The translations under genes and the position numbers were made by a program. A DNA stretch of 64,000 nucleotides from Haloarcula marina (GTDB taxonomy: Archaea; Halobacteriota; Halobacteria; Halobacteriales; Haloarculaceae): NCBI RefSeq assembly GCF_024218775.1, contig NZ_CP100404.1:2046001-2110000 (forward strand). The letters are read 5' to 3'. The first letter of the stretch is position 1, and every line of letters starts with the position of its first letter. Of the stretch, positions 20,451-42,372 are shown piece by piece. The notes beneath the pieces were generated by a model. That model had not been told where the DNA came from. It made no database searches and saw only the letters and a list, made by a program, of their open reading frames with translations.

Positions 20451-22631
20451 TCACGGCGCGAGCAGTTCTATCGGATGTCGGGGCTGTCGTTCGAGGAGCG
20501 CGTCTATCTGTTCGAGACACGAGGTCCCGCTGGCGACGACCGGGCGGTCCCGAACGTCCTGGGCCTCGAACTGCTCTCGTAGGCGGTCACCAACGTCCAT
20601 GCTGAGTTCGTAGTAGTCACTCTTGTAGCCGAAACTCCCGGCCATCCCGCAACACTCTACCTCTGAGGTCGTCACGTCGTAGCCACACTCCTCCAAGACG
20701 GCGACCGTGTGAGCTTCGAGGCCGAGCGTCCGTTGCTGGCAGTGACTGTGGTAGGCGATTTCGGGCGTCTCGACGCGGCCGAGCGAATCCGCGCTGGCCC
20801 CGTGCTCCAGCAGGCCGTAGACGTACTCCATGACCTCGTAGCTGTGCTCGGCGAGGGTCTCGAAGGTCGCAGTATCGAGCAGTTTCTCGTACTCCGAACA
20901 GAACATCGCGTGGTCGCTCGGTTCGACGACGACCACGTCTCGGCCCGCCTCGACGTGCGGCGAGAGTCCCTCTGCGACCCGTTCGGCGTGGTCCTGTGCG
21001 GTGGCTATCATCCCCTGTGAGAACGGCGCGCGACCGCTGGAGGCGACGGACGGGACGACAACGTCGACGCCGAGTGCTTCGAGGACCTTCACGGCCGCTT
21101 TCCCGCGGTCGACTTGCACGTGGTTCGTGTACACGTCGGGATAGAGAACCGCGCGGCGGTCGGGGTTCGAGACGGTCGACTCGCGCGCGGCGAACCACTC
21201 GACGAACGTCTCGCGCTGGAACTGCGGGAGGTCCCGACGCGGGTCGACGCCGACGGTACGGTCCATGAGCCACCGAGCCGTCTGCGTGTCGGCCAGCCAG
21301 TTCGAGAGGGGGGCGGTGGCGCTCCCGAGTTTCGCCATCGTCTCGAAGTTGCCGAAGAATCGTTTCTGGAGCGGCGCGCCTTCGTCCTCGTCGTCGGGCG
21401 TGAGGCCGTCGACCAGCCACGCCGCCGGAGCGTCCCCATCGCGGTTGATTCGGTCGCGGACGACCGTGTTTATCCACGGAATGTCTATCTTCACTGGGCA
21501 CGCGGTGGTGCAGCGGCTACACCCGGTACAGAGGTCGTTGAACTCGGCGGCGGTGTCGAGGCCTTCGATGCCCGCTTCCCATCCGGTGGCGATGCCGCCC
21601 GAGTACGTCTCGCCGCCGAAGGCGTGGCCGCCGACGCTCTGGAAGTTCGCACACGAATTGGCGCAGGCGGAACAGCGGATACAGTACAGCGTCTCTTCGA
21701 GGTGTTCGTCCTCGCGCATGTCCATGCGGCCGTTGTCGATGAGCACGAGGTGGAAATCCCGGTCGGCGTCGAACTCCGAGAGGGGCGTATCATCGTCCGA
21801 GAAGTCCACGACGGGTGTCTCGACGGGCGGAGTCAACAACGAGACGTAGGAGGTGATGTCCTGTCCGGTCCCCGACCGCCCGATGAGTTCGACGAACGGA
21901 TGAAAGTCGGCCACCGAGGGGACGACTTTCTCGACGCCCGCGACGGTAATCTGGGTGTCTGTCGCGGCCACCGTCTTGCGGGCGTTGCCCTCGCTGGTCA
22001 CCAGCGCCATGGTCCCGGAGTCGGCCGCGAGGAAGTTCGCGCCGGTGATACCGACTTCGCTGTCGACGATTTGCTCGCCGAGTTTCTCGCGAGCGAAGTG
22101 GGTGAGTTCTTCCGCGGTCTCCAGGGGTTCGTCGGGGTCGAAGACCTCGTTGAAGAGGTCGGCGATAGACTCGCGAGATTTGTGGATTGCGGGGGCGACG
22201 ATGTGGGAGGGCGCTTCGTCGGCCACTTGAAGGACCCACTCACCGAGGTCGGTTTCGACCACGTCGACGCCGTCACTCTCCAGTGCCTCGTTGACCTCGA
22301 TTTCCTCGCTGGTCATGGACTTGCTCTTGACGACGCGGTCGGCGTCCCGGTCGGCCACGACCTCGCGAATGTAGGCGTTGGCGTCCGCGGCGTCGTCGGC
22401 GACGTACACCGTCCCGCCGTTCTCGGCGACTGACTCCTGCAACTGTTCGAGGAGTTCGGGGAGTCGCTCGATGGCGTCTTCCTTGATGGCGCGGGCCTCG
22501 GTCTTCAGGTCCTCGTAGTCCTCCAGTTCGGCGACCGAGCGGTAGCGGCCCTCGTTGAAACCGCGCGTGTTCTCCGCGACGGCCGCGCCCTCGGTCCGCA
22601 TCAGTTCTCGAATGTCGTCTGCCTTCGACAT
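20451..22631 (-). CDS. LutB-LutA fusion-like iron-sulfur oxidoreductase, copy 1
   Basis: 726 residues from the ATG at 22631 (a GTG two codons upstream is possible; 22631 gives the same length as copy 2). Residues 1-300 are a LUD domain, then two 4Fe-4S motifs near 317-327 (CIRCSACANSC) and 368-378 (CTGCSRCTTACP), then a cysteine-rich CCG domain with HSHCQQR, ECCGMAGSFGYK and SGTSC. The first CCG site is replaced by SSGRAPFSQG. It should act with LutC in lactate or glycolate oxidation, passing electrons to the membrane. Overlaps lutC copy 1. Confidence 0.88.
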   Translation of the reverse strand: MSKADDIRELMRTEGAAVAENTRGFNEGRYRSVAELEDYEDLKTEARAIKEDAIERLPELLEQLQESVAENGGTVYVADDAADANAYIREVVADRDADRVVKSKSMTSEEIEVNEALESDGVDVVETDLGEWVLQVADEAPSHIVAPAIHKSRESIADLFNEVFDPDEPLETAEELTHFAREKLGEQIVDSEVGITGANFLAADSGTMALVTSEGNARKTVAATDTQITVAGVEKVVPSVADFHPFVELIGRSGTGQDITSYVSLLTPPVETPVVDFSDDDTPLSEFDADRDFHLVLIDNGRMDMREDEHLEETLYCIRCSACANSCANFQSVGGHAFGGETYSGGIATGWEAGIEGLDTAAEFNDLCTGCSRCTTACPVKIDIPWINTVVRDRINRDGDAPAAWLVDGLTPDDEDEGAPLQKRFFGNFETMAKLGSATAPLSNWLADTQTARWLMDRTVGVDPRRDLPQFQRETFVEWFAARESTVSNPDRRAVLYPDVYTNHVQVDRGKAAVKVLEALGVDVVVPSVASSGRAPFSQGMIATAQDHAERVAEGLSPHVEAGRDVVVVEPSDHAMFCSEYEKLLDTATFETLAEHSYEVMEYVYGLLEHGASADSLGRVETPEIAYHSHCQQRTLGLEAHTVAVLEECGYDVTTSEVECCGMAGSFGYKSDYYELSMDVGDRLREQFEAQDVRDRPVVASGTSCLEQIDALLERQPRHPIELLAP

Positions 22632-22633
22632 AC

Positions 22634-23155
22634 TCACTCGGCCTCCACGAGGAGGACGGCTACCGACTTCGGCCCATGTGCACCCCTGACGAGTGCGCCC
22701 ATGTCCGCCGTCGCACTCGGCCCCGTCGCGAAGATGGTGCTCCCGCGCGTCTCCCGAAGGTCGGCGTCTACTGCGGCGATGGCGTCGTCCATCGTCGCCA
22801 GCACGTCTTCTTCGCGGAGGACGACGACGTGGTGGTCGACGAACAGACTAACGAGTTCACTCCCGCGGTCGGTGAGACGGAGACTCAGCGTTCCGTAGTC
22901 GCCGACGCCGAACGCCGCGGCCGTCACACCCGTCGTCGCCTCGCGGAGTTCGACTGGCGTCGGGTCGACAGAGACTGCGGTGTCGTCGAGTGAGAAGTCT
23001 CGGCCGTCGAACTGTCCGTCGAGTGCGACGCCGACCGCAGGTGGGTCGACAGCCTCGTCGACGGCCGCGGCGAACCCCGTCTGAGAGACGGTAGTCACCG
23101 GAACGTCGTACGCCGAGAGTGACGACTCGAACGCGCCGAGCGTGTCAGTAGCCAT
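22634..23155 (-). CDS. LUD-domain protein (LutC-like), copy 1
   Basis: 173 residues. The C-terminal GPSATADMGALVRGAHGP is the LUD/LutC signature, and VSVDPTPVELREATTGVTAA lies mid-protein. LutC is a subunit of the LutABC L-lactate oxidation complex. The stop overlaps or abuts the lutB-A start (TGA at 22634-22636), so the two are coupled. It is clearly less similar to copy 2 (35882-36403) than the LutB-A proteins are to each other. Confidence 0.88.
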   Translation of the reverse strand: MATDTLGAFESSLSAYDVPVTTVSQTGFAAAVDEAVDPPAVGVALDGQFDGRDFSLDDTAVSVDPTPVELREATTGVTAAAFGVGDYGTLSLRLTDRGSELVSLFVDHHVVVLREEDVLATMDDAIAAVDADLRETRGSTIFATGPSATADMGALVRGAHGPKSVAVLLVEAE

Positions 23156-25419: not shown

Positions 25420-26178
25420 CTACGAGTACGTCAGGTTCACCTCGATGACGTTCGCACTGCGCAGAATCTGCGCGGGAATCTCGTCGGTGAATCGCTCGCC
25501 CTGCATTCGACTCTTCGGCCCGGAGACACTCACGGCCGCGATAGCGCGGTCGTTCTGGTTCATTATCGGGGCGGCGATACACCGCATCCCCTTGACGCGT
25601 TCCTCGTCGTCGTACGCGTACCCGCGCTCTCTGACCTCGTCGAGCGTCTCGTACAGTTCGTCCTCGTCGGCGATGGTTCGGGGGGTGATTTTCGGAAGAC
25701 CGTGTCTGTCGACGATGGCCTCGACTTCCGTCCGCGGACGGAACGCCATTATCGTCTTCCCAAGCGCAGTCGTTTGGAGGGGGACCCGCATCCCGGCGTG
25801 CGTGTCGAGTTGGACCGCATCGGGGCCGCGCGCCCGATAGAGGAAGACGCCGAGGCCGTGTTCCTCTATCATGAGATTCGAGTGCTCCCCCGTTTTTTCG
25901 GCCAGTTCGTCCACCTCGGGGCGAGCGATGTTGAACACCTTCTTTCGGGAGCGGGCTTGGTCACCGAGTTGCAGGAACCGGGTGCTCACGTGGTACTGGT
26001 CCCCCTCCTTGATGAGGTACTGCTCCCGTTCGAGCGTCCGGAGGTGGTCGTGAACGGTGCTCGTCGGCTTGTCGAGTTCTTGTGCGACCTCCGAGACGCC
26101 AGCCCCGTCGCGTTCGCGGAGTATCTCCACTATCTCCAGCGACACCTTCGCCGCATTGACTGGGACATCGTTGCTCAT
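25420..26178 (-). CDS. IclR-family transcriptional regulator (sugar module 2)
   Basis: 252 residues from the ATG at 26178; the long upstream frame crosses the divergent promoter. Winged-helix segment VSEVAQELDKPTSTVHDHLRTL near residues 25-50, then the effector domain with GKTIMAF and the ending LRSANVIEVNLTYS. The L-rhamnose cluster of Haloferax volcanii has an IclR-type activator, so this is a plausible counterpart (inference). A TCCGT-N5-CCGGA repeat lies at 26213-26227 in its own promoter, and similar repeats precede other genes of the module. Confidence 0.9.
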   Translation of the reverse strand: MSNDVPVNAAKVSLEIVEILRERDGAGVSEVAQELDKPTSTVHDHLRTLEREQYLIKEGDQYHVSTRFLQLGDQARSRKKVFNIARPEVDELAEKTGEHSNLMIEEHGLGVFLYRARGPDAVQLDTHAGMRVPLQTTALGKTIMAFRPRTEVEAIVDRHGLPKITPRTIADEDELYETLDEVRERGYAYDDEERVKGMRCIAAPIMNQNDRAIAAVSVSGPKSRMQGERFTDEIPAQILRSANVIEVNLTYS

Positions 26179-26212: not shown

Positions 26213-26227
26213 TCCGTCATTACCGGA
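26213..26227. promoter_or_regulatory. Candidate IclR operator, TCCGTCATTACCGGA
   Basis: One mismatch from TCCGG-N5-CCGGA; flanking bases extend the symmetry (TTTCCG...CGGAAA, 26211-26229 region). It lies 35 bases before the IclR gene and about 60 bases upstream of the TATA element of the divergent binding-protein gene, so it could serve both. Confidence 0.5.
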
Positions 26228-26388: not shown

Positions 26389-27585
26389 ATGCCCGAGCGA
26401 ACACTGCGGACCCAGGCGGCATCGACAGTCGACATCTTGCACCACTTCGTCGGTCGCGACCAACAGGCGATGGACGCGCTCCTCGAAACTGTCCGACGGA
26501 ATGTCCCCGACGCGAACGTGAGACAGCGGACGAATCCGAACGTGAGCCTCCAGGGGAAGGTCGACATCCTCCGCGGCAAGCCACCGAGCATACTGGAGAC
26601 GTGGCCCGGTCGCAACCTCGAACCGTACATCGACGCCGACGTCGTCGCCGACATCTCCCCGATGTGGGAGGCGGCGGGCTACACGGAAACGTACTTCGAC
26701 CGCGCGAAGGACGCGGTCAGGTTCGACAGCACCTATCGGGCGATTCCGACCAACATGCAGCGCCAGAACAATCTCTTTTTCAACCGCGCTGTCGTCGAGC
26801 GCGCCGGTGTCAATCCGTCGTCGATTACCGACGTCGCTGCGCTCGTGACGGCGTTGGAATCCGTCGAAGACGAAACCGACGCGGCGGGCCTCCTCGTGCC
26901 GCAGAAACGCCCGTGGCCGTCGCTGGACGTGTGGGACATGCTCGTGTTGAGCCACGGGACCGCCGACGCGTACGACCGCCTGTTCCGCGGCGACGACCCG
27001 CAGCGCGACGGGAACCTCGTCCGCGAGGCGCTGTCGTCGCTGGCGACCCTCGCCTCGTTCGTCCCCGACGACGCGCTGTACGACGACTGGCAGGCCGGTC
27101 TGGACCGGTTCGTCGACGGCGAGGCCGCCTTCTTCGCGATGGGCGACTGGGCGGGCGGCGTCCTCAAGAACCGCGACGGATTCGACTACGGGACCGACTG
27201 GGGCTGTGTCGCGTTTCCCGGGACGACCCAGACGTTCCAGTTGGTGATGGACGCGTTCCTCATGCCCTCGACTGCGACGAATACCGAGACGACCGAGGAC
27301 GTGCTTCGGCATGTCGGTTCAGCGACGGCCATCGAGCGCTTCACACGGACCCGCGGCGCGCTTCCACCGCGCGAGGACGTCTCGCTCGACCGCTTCTCGC
27401 CGTTCTTTCGGGACCAGATGGACGCCTACCGCTCGGCGAGGAACCACGTCGACGCGACCCGCGGACTCGGAATCGCCCCCGACCAGCGTGTCGGCGTGCT
27501 GACGGCGATAGCGACGTTCCTGTCCGAAGGGGACGTGGACGCGACGGCGACGCAGATACTGACCGCGCTCGACCGCGAGAAGTAG
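26389..27585 (+). CDS. Extracellular-solute-binding-family protein without signal peptide
   Basis: 398 residues. From residue 12 the sequence has the family 1 carbohydrate-binding-protein pattern (VDILHHFVGRDQQAMDALLE, ILETWPGRNLEPYI, RAIPTNMQRQNNLFFNRAVVERAG, FVDGEAAFFAMGDWAGG). Unlike the other binding proteins here it has no twin-arginine motif, lipobox, hydrophobic stretch or Gly-rich linker, and no in-frame upstream start adds one. It is probably cytoplasmic. It is divergent from the IclR gene with a candidate operator between. It could be a ligand sensor or buffer, or a former transport protein. Confidence 0.8.
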   Translation: MPERTLRTQAASTVDILHHFVGRDQQAMDALLETVRRNVPDANVRQRTNPNVSLQGKVDILRGKPPSILETWPGRNLEPYIDADVVADISPMWEAAGYTETYFDRAKDAVRFDSTYRAIPTNMQRQNNLFFNRAVVERAGVNPSSITDVAALVTALESVEDETDAAGLLVPQKRPWPSLDVWDMLVLSHGTADAYDRLFRGDDPQRDGNLVREALSSLATLASFVPDDALYDDWQAGLDRFVDGEAAFFAMGDWAGGVLKNRDGFDYGTDWGCVAFPGTTQTFQLVMDAFLMPSTATNTETTEDVLRHVGSATAIERFTRTRGALPPREDVSLDRFSPFFRDQMDAYRSARNHVDATRGLGIAPDQRVGVLTAIATFLSEGDVDATATQILTALDREK

Positions 27586-35667: not shown

Positions 35668-35881
35668 GGTCCGCTATTACAAATGAGGTGTGTCGCATCT
35701 AATAAATTTATCGGAATTTATAATGGGCATTTCACAGAGTGACCGAGCGTCCGCGTGTGTTGCGAGGAAGTATGAGTGTGCGGGCGGGTGCGAAACGAAC
35801 GTCATACGTCGATACCGGACACAAACGCCGCCGCTCGGCAACCAAAGCTAAATGACGGAGTAGTGCCAGCGTACGCATACG
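35668..35881. promoter_or_regulatory. Divergent promoter between binding protein and lutC copy 2
   Basis: 214 bases. The left end is very A/T-rich (35698-35732) with TATA-like elements for the leftward gene. A candidate IclR operator lies at 35805-35819 and a weak TATA-like AGCTAAAT near 35846-35853 for lutC copy 2, about 30 bases before its ATG. Confidence 0.4.
35805..35819. promoter_or_regulatory. Candidate IclR operator half-conserved, TACGTCGATACCGGA
   Basis: Right arm ATACCGGA is exact; left arm matches TCCGG at three of five bases. It sits about 30 bases upstream of the lutC TATA element, a position suited to an activator. Confidence 0.35.
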
Positions 35882-36403
35882 ATGACAGAGAGCCGCTCGG
35901 CCTTCGAGACATCTCTCGACGAGTTGGGTGTGACAGTAACCCGCACAGAGGAATCGACCATCGCGGCGGCGCTCACCGAAACCGTCGTCGACCCGGCCGT
36001 CGGCGTCTCACTCGGGGACGCGTTCGGAAGCGACGGGTTCACGCTCGCCGACGCGGGGGTGTCCGTCGACCCGACGCCAGTCGAACTCCGCGAGGCGACG
36101 ACCGGTGTAACGGCCGCCGACCTCGCAGTCTCCGACTACGGGTCGCTCGTTCTGACGCTGGACGACCGCGCGAGCGAACTGGTGAGTCTGTTCGTCGAGC
36201 GCCACGTTGCCCTCGTCCGTGCGAGCGACGTCGTCGACGACATGGACACCGCCATCGAAACCCTCGACGCGACATTCAATCGGACTGGAGGGAGCGCGGT
36301 TCTCGCGACGGGACCGAGCGCGACGGCGGACATGGGCGCGCTCGTCCAGGGGGCGCACGGCCCCGAAACAGTCCACGTCGTCATCATCGAGGAGGGTGCG
36401 TAA
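35882..36403 (+). CDS. LUD-domain protein (LutC-like), copy 2
   Basis: 173 residues, same length as copy 1. VSVDPTPVELREATTGVTAA and GPSATADMGALVQGAHGP are shared, while the N-terminal third is divergent. Two bases separate its stop from the lutB-A ATG. It is expected to work with that protein in oxidising lactate, a product of the diketo-hydrolase pathway, to pyruvate. Confidence 0.88.
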   Translation: MTESRSAFETSLDELGVTVTRTEESTIAAALTETVVDPAVGVSLGDAFGSDGFTLADAGVSVDPTPVELREATTGVTAADLAVSDYGSLVLTLDDRASELVSLFVERHVALVRASDVVDDMDTAIETLDATFNRTGGSAVLATGPSATADMGALVQGAHGPETVHVVIIEEGA

Positions 36404-36405
36404 GG

Positions 36406-38586
36406 ATGGCGAGCGCCGACGAGATTCGAGAACTGATGCGGACGGAAGGCGTCGCTGTCGCGGAGAACACGCGCGGTTTCAACGAGGGCCGGTACCGCTC
36501 GGTCGCCGAACTGGAGGACTACGAGGACCTAAAGACCGAAGCCCGCGCCATCAAGGAAGACGCCATCGAGCGCCTCCCCGAACTCCTCGACCAACTGACC
36601 GAGGCCGTCGAAGAAAACCGCGGGACTGTGTACGTCGCCGACGACGCTGACGACGCCAACGCCTACATTCGCGAGGTGGTCGCCGACCGGGACGCCGACC
36701 GCGTCGTCAAGAGCAAGTCCATGACCAGCGAGGAAATCGAGGTCAACGAGGCACTGGAGAGTGACGGCGTCGACGTGGTCGAAACCGACCTCGGCGAGTG
36801 GGTCCTCCAAGTGGCCGACGAAGCCCCCTCCCACATCGTCGCCCCCGCCATCCACAAGTCCCGCGACAGCATCGCAGAGTTGTTCAACGAGGTCTTCGAC
36901 CCCGACGAACCCTTGGAGACGGCCGAAGAACTGACTCGTTTCGCTCGCGAGAAACTCGGCGAACAAATCGTCGACAGCGAAGTCGGTATCACCGGCGCGA
37001 ACTTCGTCACCGCGGACACCGGAACGATGGCGCTGGTGACCAGCGAGGGCAACGCCCGCAAGACGGTGGCCGCGACGGACACACACGTCGCGGTCGCTGG
37101 CGTCGAGAAGGTGATTCCGACCGTCAGCGACCTGCACCCGTTCGTCGAACTCATCGGCCGCTCTGGGACCGGACAGGACATCACCTCCTACGTCTCGTTG
37201 TTGACTCCGCCCGTCGAGACACCCGTCGTGGATTTCGAGGACGACGAGACGCCCCTCTCGGAGTTCGAGAACGACCGGGATTTCCACCTCGTGCTCATCG
37301 ACAACGGCCGCATGGACATGCGCGAGGACGAACACCTCGAAGAGACGCTGTACTGTATCCGCTGCTCGGCGTGTTCGAACTCGTGTGCGAACTTCCAGAG
37401 CGTCGGCGGCCACGCCTTCGGCGGCGAGACGTACTCGGGCGGCATCGCCACCGGATGGGAAGCGGGCATCGAGGGCCTCGATACCGCCGCCGAGTTCAAC
37501 GACCTCTGTACCGGATGTAGCCGCTGTGTGAACGCCTGTCCCGTCGGCATCGACATCCCGTGGATAAACACGGTCGTCCGCGACCGCATCAACCGGGAGA
37601 AAGACGAACCGGTAGAGTGGCTGGTCGACGGCCTCACGCCCGACGAGGAAAACGAAGGCGCGCCGCTCCAGAAGCGCTTTTTCGGCAACTTCGAGACGAT
37701 GGCGAAGGTGGGGAGCGCCACCGCCCCCCTCTCGAACTGGCTGGCCGACACCGGTCTGTCGCGCCGAGCGATGGCGTGGGCGTTGGACATCGACCCGCGT
37801 CGGGACCTCCCGCAGTTCCAGCGCGAGACGTTCGTCGAGTGGGTCGCCGCGCGCGAGTCGACCGTCTCGAACCCCGACCGCCGCGCGGTTCTCTATCCCG
37901 ACGTGTACACGAACCACGTGCAAGTCGACCGCGGGAAAGCGGCCGTAAAGGTCCTCGAAGCGCTGGGCGTCGACGTTGTCGTCCCGTCCGTCGCCTCCAG
38001 CGGTCGCGCGCCGCTCTCACAGGGGATGATAGCCACCGCGCAGGACCACGCCGAACGCGTCTCCACCGCCCTCGCCCCACATATCGAGGACGGCCGCGAC
38101 GTGGTCGTCGTCGAACCGAGCGACCACGCGATGTTCCAGCGGGAGTACGAGAAACTGCTCGGCGACCGCGAGTTCATGACCCTCGCCGAGAACAGCTACG
38201 AGGTCATGGAGTACGTCTACGGCCTGCTGGTGCACGGGGCCGACGCGGATGCCCTCTCGACGGTCGAGGACGGACGACTCGCCTACCACAGTCACTGCCA
38301 GCAACGGACGCTCGGCCTCGAAGCACACACTGTCGCCGTCTTGGAGCAGTGTGGCTACGACGTGACGACTTCCGAGGTGGAGTGTTGCGGCATGGCCGGG
38401 AGTTTCGGCTACAAGGGTGACTACTACGAACTCAGCATGGATGTCGGTGACCGCCTGCGCGAGCAGTTCGAGGCCGACGACGTCAGGGACCGCCCAGTGG
38501 TCGCCAGCGGCACCTCCTGTCTCGAACAGATTGACGCGCTCCTCGAACGACAGCCCCGACATCCGGTAGAACTGCTCGCCGAGTAA
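36406..38586 (+). CDS. LutB-LutA fusion-like iron-sulfur oxidoreductase, copy 2
   Basis: 726 residues from the ATG at 36406; the longer frame upstream is a shadow of lutC. Architecture as in copy 1: LUD domain, two 4Fe-4S motifs (CIRCSACSNSC, CTGCSRCVNACP), and a C-terminal CCG domain with ECCGMAGSFGYK. Long stretches are identical to copy 1; the differences cluster around residues 445-465 and 560-625. Role: electron-transferring subunit of lactate (or glycolate) oxidation. Copies 1 and 2 face away from each other. Confidence 0.88.
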   Translation: MASADEIRELMRTEGVAVAENTRGFNEGRYRSVAELEDYEDLKTEARAIKEDAIERLPELLDQLTEAVEENRGTVYVADDADDANAYIREVVADRDADRVVKSKSMTSEEIEVNEALESDGVDVVETDLGEWVLQVADEAPSHIVAPAIHKSRDSIAELFNEVFDPDEPLETAEELTRFAREKLGEQIVDSEVGITGANFVTADTGTMALVTSEGNARKTVAATDTHVAVAGVEKVIPTVSDLHPFVELIGRSGTGQDITSYVSLLTPPVETPVVDFEDDETPLSEFENDRDFHLVLIDNGRMDMREDEHLEETLYCIRCSACSNSCANFQSVGGHAFGGETYSGGIATGWEAGIEGLDTAAEFNDLCTGCSRCVNACPVGIDIPWINTVVRDRINREKDEPVEWLVDGLTPDEENEGAPLQKRFFGNFETMAKVGSATAPLSNWLADTGLSRRAMAWALDIDPRRDLPQFQRETFVEWVAARESTVSNPDRRAVLYPDVYTNHVQVDRGKAAVKVLEALGVDVVVPSVASSGRAPLSQGMIATAQDHAERVSTALAPHIEDGRDVVVVEPSDHAMFQREYEKLLGDREFMTLAENSYEVMEYVYGLLVHGADADALSTVEDGRLAYHSHCQQRTLGLEAHTVAVLEQCGYDVTTSEVECCGMAGSFGYKGDYYELSMDVGDRLREQFEADDVRDRPVVASGTSCLEQIDALLERQPRHPVELLAE

Positions 38587-39850: not shown

Positions 39851-40672
39851 TCAGCCTTTCAGATAGCCGCCGTCGACCGCAATCGACTCGCCCGTTATCC
39901 ACTCGCCCTCGTCGGAGAGCAACAGGACGGCGACGTGACCGATTTCTTCGGGTTGGGCCGGTCTGTCGAGGATGTGCGACGACAGCGACTCCGAGAGGAC
40001 TTCGTCGGGCGACTGACCGCTCTGGGCGGCCTTCTCTTCGAGCCACTGGGTGACCATCGGCGTCTCGACGGTCCCCGGTTTGATGGCGTTCGCGGTGATG
40101 CCGTGCTCGGCGAGTTCCTTCGCCAGTACCGTCGTCAACGTCAGGACCGCGGCCTTCGAAGCGCCGTAGGCCCCCTGTCCGGTGAACGGGCGCTCCGCCC
40201 CCACTGACGAGATGTTGACGATGCTCCCCGCCACGTCGTCCGCAATCATCTGCCCGGCGACCCGTTTCGCGACCAGAAACGTCCCTTTGGCGTTGACCGC
40301 GAAGTGCCGGTCCCACTCGGCCTCGCTCGTCTCCAGTAAGGGGACGGAACGCTGAATACCGGCGTTGTTGACCACGCCGTTGATGGGGCCGAACGTTGCG
40401 ACGGCCTCCTCGACGCCGCGGTCCACGGAGGCTTCGTCGGCCACGTCAACTTCGACGACAGCCGCTTCGCGCCCGAGTCCGCGCACCGCATCGGCCGTCT
40501 CGGCCGCTGTCTCTGTATCGAGGTCGAAGACGGTCACGTCGGCGCCCGCCCGCGCACACCGGACCGCGATGCCGCGACCGATGCCCTGTGCGCCACCGGT
40601 GACGACGACGTGGCGGTCACGAAGCCGTGTATCTGACTGTGCGGAACGGTCGCTCGTCTCTGGTGCAGACAT
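39851..40672 (-). CDS. Short-chain dehydrogenase/reductase (SDR), module 2
   Basis: 273 residues from the ATG at 40672; the longer frame is promoter. Cofactor loop GGAQGIGRG, Asp in VFDLD after strand 2 (suggests NAD), NNAGIQ, Ser in ISSVGA and YGASK. Likely an L-rhamnose 1-dehydrogenase or 2-keto-3-deoxyrhamnonate 4-dehydrogenase; the zinc enzyme at 29962 may take the other step. A perfect TCCGG-N5-CCGGA repeat lies 74 bases upstream. Confidence 0.87.
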   Translation of the reverse strand: MSAPETSDRSAQSDTRLRDRHVVVTGGAQGIGRGIAVRCARAGADVTVFDLDTETAAETADAVRGLGREAAVVEVDVADEASVDRGVEEAVATFGPINGVVNNAGIQRSVPLLETSEAEWDRHFAVNAKGTFLVAKRVAGQMIADDVAGSIVNISSVGAERPFTGQGAYGASKAAVLTLTTVLAKELAEHGITANAIKPGTVETPMVTQWLEEKAAQSGQSPDEVLSESLSSHILDRPAQPEEIGHVAVLLLSDEGEWITGESIAVDGGYLKG

Positions 40673-40745
40673 ATCCGCTCGTCCGTGGCGAGCGTACGTA
40701 AGCGTGTAGGGTGTTCGGTCGCGGTACCGACCTTCGAAAGGTGTG

Positions 40746-40760
40746 TCCGGCAATACCGGA
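40746..40760. promoter_or_regulatory. Candidate IclR operator TCCGGCAATACCGGA
   Basis: Perfect 5-base arms around 5 bases, 74 bases before the SDR start at 40672. Placed upstream of the expected TATA zone, so it would suit activation. Confidence 0.55.
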
Positions 40761-40922
40761 GAAAATTCACTCCAACTACTGGCCACGTAGAGCACGTGCG
40801 TACGTACCACACCACCGCATTCAGGTGGGGACATCAACACGTTCAAGCGCCCTTTCGGTTTTCCCGTCACTAATCTCGACATTGTGAATTTATTCCGCCG
40901 TGGAGCAACCGGTCGTAATTTT

Positions 40923-40937
40923 TCCGGTGATACCGGA
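40923..40937. promoter_or_regulatory. Candidate IclR operator TCCGGTGATACCGGA
   Basis: Perfect arms; symmetry extends to 6 bases (TCCGGT / ACCGGA). Its centre is 20 bases from that of the next site, about two helical turns. Confidence 0.55.
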
Positions 40938-40942
40938 GCATT

Positions 40943-40957
40943 TCTGCCAATACCGGA
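40943..40957. promoter_or_regulatory. Candidate IclR operator, degenerate, TCTGCCAATACCGGA
   Basis: Right arm exact, left arm with two changes; the spacer and right half (CAATACCGGA) repeat those of the site at 40746. Confidence 0.4.
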
Positions 40958-41182
40958 TTGCGGACTGGCGACAGCGACCGGTCGGTAGTCGATTGTTGGC
41001 GCGTCCCGGCCACAGTCAGGGAAGGGGAACAGGACCGAAGAGCCGTAAGATACCCGAAATCGACACAGTAAACGCTTCCAGTCGAGACGGCGGTGACCAT
41101 CTGGCTCTCGCGGTTATCGGCGATTGACTCCGCTCCGTTCGTGCCTCGATTCGAAATCCACGCGTCCGAGGCGATGATTTCG

Positions 41183-41197
41183 TCCGGTATCGCCGGA
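41183..41197. promoter_or_regulatory. Candidate IclR operator TCCGGTATCGCCGGA
   Basis: Perfect 5-base arms, more than 500 bases from the nearest recognised start codon. Confidence 0.5.
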
Positions 41198-41254
41198 AAT
41201 GCAGGGCTGAAGTAGTGCTACCGCCGCAGGTCAGCAGTCTGAGACCTCCATAAT

Positions 41255-41640
41255 ACACGTACTATTGTTATTCGCGTTCCGAGCGGAGAGTTCTTAGATA
41301 ACACCCGTACATACGTTATTTCGAATGAGAGTCTATCTTTCGACCGGGCGCCCGTCCGTGACCTCAATACGATTCTAGCAGTGATCGATTGAGATTATCT
41401 GGAGTGGATTTCCCAACCTATAACTAGATATTTAGTCACAATAGAATCTTATTTCGTACTTTTATCTCTAGTTTTCTATATTTATGTTCAAATATATTTT
41501 TAATGAGTTTATTAGCGCCAAATATACCACTATTATCGCAAATCTATATTCAGGTTGGCATTCTTCTACGCAAAATCTGATTACAAGCTCCATATAGACA
41601 TCCGTTAAATTCCGACGCAGAAGTTCGACGGTACGCCGCG
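41255..41640. other. AT-rich segment
   Basis: About 385 bases with many A/T runs (for example around 41400-41560), clearly unlike the GC-rich surroundings. Could be a recombination scar, a degraded element, or a structured intergenic spacer. No coding signal seen. Confidence 0.5.
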
Positions 41641-41688
41641 GCGTATCTCATACGTCGGTTCGTGCAAACGGGAACGGGACCGATGAAG

Positions 41689-41706
41689 CGCCGCCGTTCG
41701 GCGGCG
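41689..41706 (-). terminator. GC-rich hairpin after the YjdF-like gene
   Basis: Arms CGCCGC / GCGGCG with further pairing, located 7 bases past the stop at 41713 in the direction of leftward transcription. Confidence 0.4.
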
Positions 41707-41712
41707 GCGACC

Positions 41713-42372
41713 TCAACTCGTTCGCGTCTCCAGCCATCCCTCGACGTGACCGACAACGTCGGTGAGATGTGCGGTTCCCCAGACGGCGACGACGACTGCC
41801 CCGATGGTGTCGAAGACGAGGTCCAACATGGTATCGTCGAGGCCGTACTGGGTGAGAATCGTGGCGTTGCCCGACGCCTCCGCGGCCAACGTGATGGAGA
41901 ACTCGATGACCTCCCAGAGCACGCCGAATGCGAGGACGAACAGGAGGATGAACACGAAGACGAACCGGGACGGGAGGTAGATCTCCTCTGAGTGACGGTC
42001 GATAGCCCGGACCGTCGTGTAGCCGACGGCGGCGACGATAGACGACGAGAGCGCGTGGGTGACGTGATCCCACCACCAGATTCCGGCGTAGAAGTTCGTC
42101 TCGGAACCGGGCAGACCGAGGACGCCGAGAGCGTGGAGAAACACCGCCGAGGTAATCCACAGCGTCAGGGCCGGGTCGAGCGCGATGCCGTAGTCCCGTT
42201 CGAGCAGGGGCGGGAGTTGCGTGACCGCGAGGCCCACGGCCGTGTTGACGATGACGCCGGTGCTGCCGCGGTCGACGCCGATGGCGAGGATACCGACCAT
42301 CGCCAGCGTCATCGCCCGTGAGAGTTGCCGTTGGCGTCGGTGGCTGACCCCGAGGTAGTCGCGGACCCTCAT
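41713..42372 (-). CDS. Predicted membrane protein, YjdF/DUF2238-like
   Basis: 219 residues from the ATG at 42372; the frame extends upstream as a shadow of the next gene. About five membrane segments. WWWDHVTHALSSSIVAAVGY and FGVLWEVIEF match the DUF2238-type pattern, with conserved His, Glu and Asp in membrane-facing positions. Start overlaps the stop of the upstream membrane protein by four bases. Function unknown. Confidence 0.78.
   Translation of the reverse strand: MRVRDYLGVSHRRQRQLSRAMTLAMVGILAIGVDRGSTGVIVNTAVGLAVTQLPPLLERDYGIALDPALTLWITSAVFLHALGVLGLPGSETNFYAGIWWWDHVTHALSSSIVAAVGYTTVRAIDRHSEEIYLPSRFVFVFILLFVLAFGVLWEVIEFSITLAAEASGNATILTQYGLDDTMLDLVFDTIGAVVVAVWGTAHLTDVVGHVEGWLETRTS

Follow-up and report, generated by a model that had tools for sequence, protein, structure and literature searches.

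The window, i.e., the whole 64,000-nucleotide stretch of Haloarcula marina DNA that we analyzed, carries a sugar-catabolic island followed by a gene-free kilobase (Table 1). The island encodes an IclR regulator, two FAH-type hydrolases, an MR/MLE dehydratase, an alcohol dehydrogenase, an ABC sugar transporter, LUD proteins, an amidohydrolase-type lactonase and an L-rhamnose mutarotase (rhaM, PF05336), and the rhamnose pathway genes among them (mutarotase, lactonase, dehydratase, hydrolase) are clustered with the regulator gene. The best NCBIfam models in the island are those of L-rhamnonate dehydratase and 2,4-didehydro-3-deoxy-L-rhamnonate hydrolase, both scoring below the curated cut-off. 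Because the orthologous lactonase of H. pelagica is annotated rhcC, L-rhamnono-1,4-lactonase, the substrate of the island is, as judged from gene content, most likely L-rhamnose. The two LutB/LutC-like (LUD) gene pairs at 20451-23155 and 35882-38586 perhaps serve lactate from the rhamnose pathway. An ORF divergent from iclR (26389-27585) reads like an ABC substrate-binding protein; relatives carry an LLM-type gene beside iclR at this place, and the ORF is possibly an insertion.

Table 1. Features of the operator array and its surroundings in the window, and offsets of the operator triad at the SDR loci.
Feature	Position	Strand	Remarks
IclR-family regulator, RhcR-like	25420..26166	-	presumed binder; PF09339 (HTH_IclR) and PF01614 (IclR_C)
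Operator before iclR, TCCGTCATTACCGGA	26213..26227	.	starts 47 bp before iclR start codon; presumed autoregulation
Weak operator-like site	35805..35819	.	between ABC substrate-binding gene and lutC-like gene
SDR gene	39851..40672	-	presumed target of the array; right edge of the sugar-catabolic island
Core-promoter block, ACACCCTACACGCTTACGTA on minus strand	40695..40714	-	TATA-like part ~27 bp before ATG; putative function
Operator 1 (proximal), TCCGGCAATACCGGA	40746..40760	.	starts 74 bp upstream of SDR start codon
Operator 2 (distal), TCCGGTGATACCGGA	40923..40937	.	251 bp upstream of SDR start
Operator 2b (degenerate), TCTGCCAATACCGGA	40943..40957	.	2 mismatches; 20 bp from operator 2
Operator 3 (far distal), TCCGGTATCGCCGGA	41183..41197	.	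511 bp upstream of SDR start
AT-rich junction, catabolic island/core chromosome	41250..41712	.	left limit approximate; GC 0.44
DUF2238-like core gene	41713..42372	-	reads toward array; below Pfam cut-off; alignable with relatives from its stop codon on
Triad, window	74/251/511		bp before SDR start
Triad, G014	91/254/512
Triad, G006	71/244/579
Triad, G010	71/257/514
Triad, G002	71/255/515
Triad, G272	90/267/531
Triad, G011	82/342/554
Triad, GH36	71/244/580

A first-pass annotation of this DNA had described four operator-like sites spread over about 450 bases of a gene-free kilobase, two of them 20 bases apart, and our analysis bore out this description. All four coordinates were right: the operators at 40746, 40923 and 41183 are perfect TCCGG-N5-CCGGA palindromes and the site at 40943 is a degenerate copy that starts 20 bp from its neighbor, for a measured span of 452 bp (40746-41197). 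The region contains no credible gene, as its ORFs are 33 to 80 aa long and mostly basic. Typical haloarchaeal proteins are acidic, and these short basic ORFs are thus atypical. The neighbor on the right does read leftward and end at 41713. On the SDR side, the proximal operator begins ~45 bp upstream of the TATA-like part of the core-promoter block, and a similar block is present in two related genomes, G014 and G006.

Within the 64 kb, the exact TCCGG-N5-CCGGA sequence (0 mismatches) occurs at operators 1, 2 and 3 only. Genome-wide, the bare palindrome was found at 15 places, compared with 16 for a reversed control, which is the level expected by chance; therefore, the palindrome alone is uninformative, and it is its AT-centred form and its clustering that are informative. 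The exact AT-centred form, TCCGGYRWYRCCGGA, has only three copies in the 3.74-Mb genome, operators 1, 2 and 3. With at most one mismatch, it occurs at 19 places versus 6 in the control, and of the 16 one-mismatch places, the one before iclR is the only one that we examined. We built a weight matrix from 19 seed sites, of which the window itself contributed three; it scored >12 at six places in the 64 kb, namely, the four array sites, the site before iclR (26213) and the one at 35805, the next best score being 7.1. No counterpart of the 35805 site scoring >11 was found at the same place in the relatives mapped.

RhcR is described in PMC11519228 as an IclR-type activator of rhamnose catabolism. 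A search of 392 genomes with the regulator of the island gave matches at threshold in 151, and 30 matches were taken as loci and examined. An operator lies 19 to 70 bp upstream of the regulator gene in 28 of these 30 RhcR-like orthologues, the two genes without an upstream site being those of L185 and L195, and none of the sites before the 28 genes had been used as a matrix seed. These sites link the motif to the RhcR-like regulator across several families. Because it precedes so many of the regulator orthologues, the array sites are very probably operators of the island's own RhcR-like IclR regulator (L-rhamnose), which would bind them. The palindromic operator is common to the regulator gene and the SDR arrays, placing both in a putative RhcR regulon. 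No published operator map for RhcR was found in the literature searched, and a whole-word search for RhcR returned no title on haloarchaea among the matches listed. In the same literature, no publication on these operators was found either.

A DNA search of 32 genomes of the genus with the whole 1-kb region returned, apart from its own genome, nothing but short, weak matches, and conservation was therefore sought site by site. The SDR gene was found at threshold in 7 of the 32 genomes, own included. A triad of operators ~70 to 90, 245 to 340 and 510 to 580 bp before the SDR start is present at eight SDR loci of the same layout, in G014, G006, G010, G002, G011 (two identical copies), GH36 and G272, i.e., in six other Haloarcula species and one haloarchaeon of another family (G272). 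Loci of differing layout were kept apart from this count: G004, whose SDR gene is part of an operon and has no array before it; the Haloferax loci and the Halorubrum locus (G333 = L072); and G092 and G100, in which a triad precedes iclR, at 46, 238 to 240 and 483 to 485 bp. With no training on these loci, the plain rule TCCG-N7-CGGA was run over the 1 kb upstream and detected exactly three sites in the window, G014, G006, G011 and G272, four in G010, three in G002 and two in GH36, against a background of 13 in 157,358 bp. The proximal site of G002 misses the rule and the far site of GH36 has one mismatch to it, yet both score as sites in the matrix. G010 and G002 have a fourth site ~953 bp upstream. 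The 20-bp doublet of operators 2 and 2b recurs with unchanged spacing in G006 and GH36 and, in weaker form, in G014; it is absent from G010, G002 and G272.

The operators are better preserved than the DNA between them. In the G006-GH36 pair, 58 of 60 operator positions are identical, versus 365 of 457 spacer positions (0.80; P = 0.0003), and in the G010-G002 pair the counts are 48 of 60 and 553 of 829 (0.67; P = 0.02). We also simulated site positions in the lineages G014, G006, G010, G011 and G272, drawing the three distal sites of G006 as two and leaving out GH36, G002 and the second identical G011 copy as near relatives. Seven of 10 distal sites coincide within 20 bp with 251 or 511, which only 4 of 200,000 runs reached, under assumptions of independence and free placement; common ancestry with few indels may explain part of this agreement. 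The distal sites are thus conserved among relatives, the opposite of the lack of conservation that the first-pass annotation had named as a refutation, and such conservation is what a looping or enhancer-like promoter predicts. On these comparisons of sequence, a conserved long-range operator array is well supported.

Two further features of these loci were noted. The G011 copies (L063 and L064) lie on one contig and share identical 1.7-kb upstream DNA; the alignment of the lutB-like gene falls into two pieces in both copies, and that of the substrate-binding gene into three in one of them. A second inverted repeat, CCGATCAG...CTGATCG, has been kept ~440 to 470 bp before the SDR start in both G006 (L168) and GH36 (L167), where it falls between operators 2 and 3.

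Beyond the array, the AT-rich DNA at ~41.25 to 41.71 kb has no second copy in its own genome and at most short, weak matches in 31 genus mates. In genus mates devoid of the island, a short ORF follows the DUF2238 gene within ~50 bp, and two further genes come next; going by their translations, these read as dodecin-like, iscA-like and hisD-like, respectively. The window has the DNA corresponding to this segment at 52.4 to 53.9 kb, with its relative orientation reversed. The longest alignments to relatives start at 41712-41717, at the DUF2238 stop codon, and together these findings indicate that an inversion-type rearrangement abuts the island. With a breakpoint at 41712/41713, the DNA from DUF2238 to ~52 kb is inverted relative to its usual neighbors in genus mates. 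The 41250-41712 segment is probably unrelated junction DNA. This breakpoint, together with the divergent histidine kinase gene that the SDR gene faces in G006 and GH36, might indicate that the rearrangement at 41.71 kb stranded operators 2 and 3 as relics when a divergent gene or second promoter was lost. We consider this very improbable, as the triad persists beside neighbors as different as an iclR paralogue, an alcohol dehydrogenase, a histidine kinase and DUF2238, and relics would be expected to decay as the spacers did.

The spread of the sites had also raised the possibility that a hidden transcript, either a small RNA or a microprotein mRNA, starts between or beyond the distal sites under their control. 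The spacers between operators are mostly unalignable among the SDR loci. In the two close pairs they appear to evolve about as freely as silent sites: fourfold-degenerate sites are 0.74 to 0.90 identical in four flanking genes between G006 and GH36 (spacers, 0.80) and 0.71 identical in the SDR gene between G010 and G002 (spacers, 0.67). As the spacers are conserved no better than these sites and their indels are not multiples of three, the comparison speaks against the conservation of a small RNA or microprotein in Haloarcula; a species-specific one, or one in the AT-rich junction with its at most short, weak matches in relatives, would escape it. An Rfam search detected no family in the region, the one match listed (E = 0.18) being outside it and far below the cut-off. 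When all short ORFs were compared between the upstream regions by tblastn, many weak matches but no consistent frame were obtained, except between G010 and G002, which are alignable throughout; no ORF between the sites is consistently conserved.

What speaks for such a transcript comes from other genera. Two operators 476 to 577 bp apart (the spacing in L070 being as in L069) separate the SDR stop codon from rdfA (PF21811) in seven named species of Haloferax, and between these operators lies a block of ~200 nt (5250-5450 in L074, and its orthologues in all seven species examined). Over six pairs, this block is 0.90 to 0.97 identical without H. massiliensis and 0.73 to 0.74 with it, while the flanking spacers are 0.36 to 0.82 identical and fourfold sites in the SDR gene 0.82 to 0.89. 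The block has a TATA-like stretch upstream of it, contains hairpins and ends in a T-run; we regard it as a candidate conserved structured RNA, mainly on account of its sequence conservation. Its structure is modestly supported: the single-sequence fold has a z-score of -1.6, and three pairs are changed on both sides, a number that 20 of 500 shuffles reach. The block has no match in Rfam, and a search of 392 genomes detected it in the seven Haloferax genomes that have the SDR gene at threshold. The sole other match, of 47 nt, was judged to be due to chance; a weak covariance hit in L166, located within a coding ORF with the look of a transporter gene, was rejected as chance. In Halorubrum lipolyticum (L155, 10663-11384), a triad occupies a 720-bp gap between two converging genes. 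Both genes have their 3′ ends at this gap, where the annotation shows no promoter that the triad could serve, and a fourth site lies inside the neighboring DUF2264 gene. Because of the Haloferax RNA candidate and this Halorubrum triad, the idea of a hidden transcript may hold elsewhere in the group. However, neither the window nor the Haloarcula arrays gave a homologue of the Haloferax RNA in nhmmer and covariance-model searches. Together with the spacer comparison, this makes a hidden transcript unlikely at this locus. Thus, of the two options in the first-pass annotation, a hidden transcript or a distal regulatory element, only the latter is supported here, the distal sites being kept in every examined SDR locus of this layout.

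We therefore favor, with fair confidence, the reading that the SDR gene has its regulatory region at 40673-41200, with three strong operators and one weak operator for the RhcR-like IclR regulator. This suggests that the gene-free kilobase is mostly a switch for the long-range control of a sugar gene and not a hidden gene. The regulator would probably occupy all operators of the array, the proximal site being ~80 bp upstream of the presumed transcription start and the conserved distal sites ~250 and 510 bp upstream. The distal sites would probably tighten control of the core promoter, keeping expression low without sugar and allowing strong induction with sugar. The simplest route would be for the distal operators to bridge to the proximal site via a DNA loop, which is plausible. 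Operator spacings are 163 to 186 and 257 to 264 bp in most loci, with 335 bp in G006 and 260 and 212 bp in G011; they share no common helical phase, and thus no rigid loop geometry is evident, although long spacers need not be phased. The similarity of the spacings may in part be inherited from a common ancestor, with few indels since. In Haloferax and Halorubrum, the SDR gene is inside an operon and the operators lie beyond the 3′ end of that operon, indicating that the array is not tied to one promoter.

Published promoters bear on how the distal sites might act. In Haloferax volcanii, a 250-bp fragment of the xacE (xylose) promoter is constitutive (PMC10448506), and at 750 bp expression without xylose is ~5.5-fold lower and rises 10.3-fold with xylose; its authors propose regulatory elements between 250 and 750 bp, and the IclR-type XacR is the candidate regulator. 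According to a review, archaeal promoters can have auxiliary and distal sites, for which loops or wrapping are proposed (PMC7408454, section 6.2). On the xacE parallel and the review, we favor a regulator that would bridge or cooperate between proximal and distal operators. Alternatively, the distal sites might be auxiliary or decoy operators that raise the local concentration of the regulator or titrate it without any loop contact. The absence of a common helical phase would fit this possibility, as would archaeal auxiliary upstream sites acting by concentration (PMC7408454, section 6.2), but the distal region of the xylose promoter converts a constitutive promoter into a regulated one, which goes beyond what mild titration predicts. 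We hold this alternative to be possible but the less likely one. A bolder reading, likewise possible but less likely than not, is that for haloarchaeal IclR-type sugar regulators in general, the conserved triad (~80, 250 and 510 bp) is an enhancer-like, loop-forming switch, and that in some genera the operators also bracket a sugar-linked structured small RNA.

Archaeal regulators that act at a distance are poorly documented, and a specific regulator with a defined operator and conserved sites at ~250 and 510 bp represents a directly testable case. The array offers an explanation for a haloarchaeal sugar promoter losing its control once trimmed to 250 bp, and the operator motif provides a means to list the RhcR-like regulon across haloarchaea. 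The array resembles Pxyl (P250/P750) in that both have a candidate IclR-type regulator and that regulation of Pxyl needs sequence 250 to 750 bp upstream; unlike the array, Pxyl has no mapped operator sites in the section of the paper devoted to it, and its regulator and sugar are different. Like the promoters of RHH activators (PMC7408454, section 6.2) and Ss-LrpB (cited in the reference list of that review), with several spaced sites at one promoter and reported distal sites, the SDR promoter has several sites; unlike those proteins, which belong to other families, the regulator here is of the IclR type, with sites up to 511 bp away. A parallel in gene content is the RhcR rhamnose cluster of H. 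volcanii (Reinhardt et al. 2019, as cited in PMC11519228), with an IclR-type regulator, a CUT1-like ABC transporter, a lactonase, an MR/MLE dehydratase and a FAH-type hydrolase. Compared with that system, the sites described here form a positionally conserved multi-operator array.
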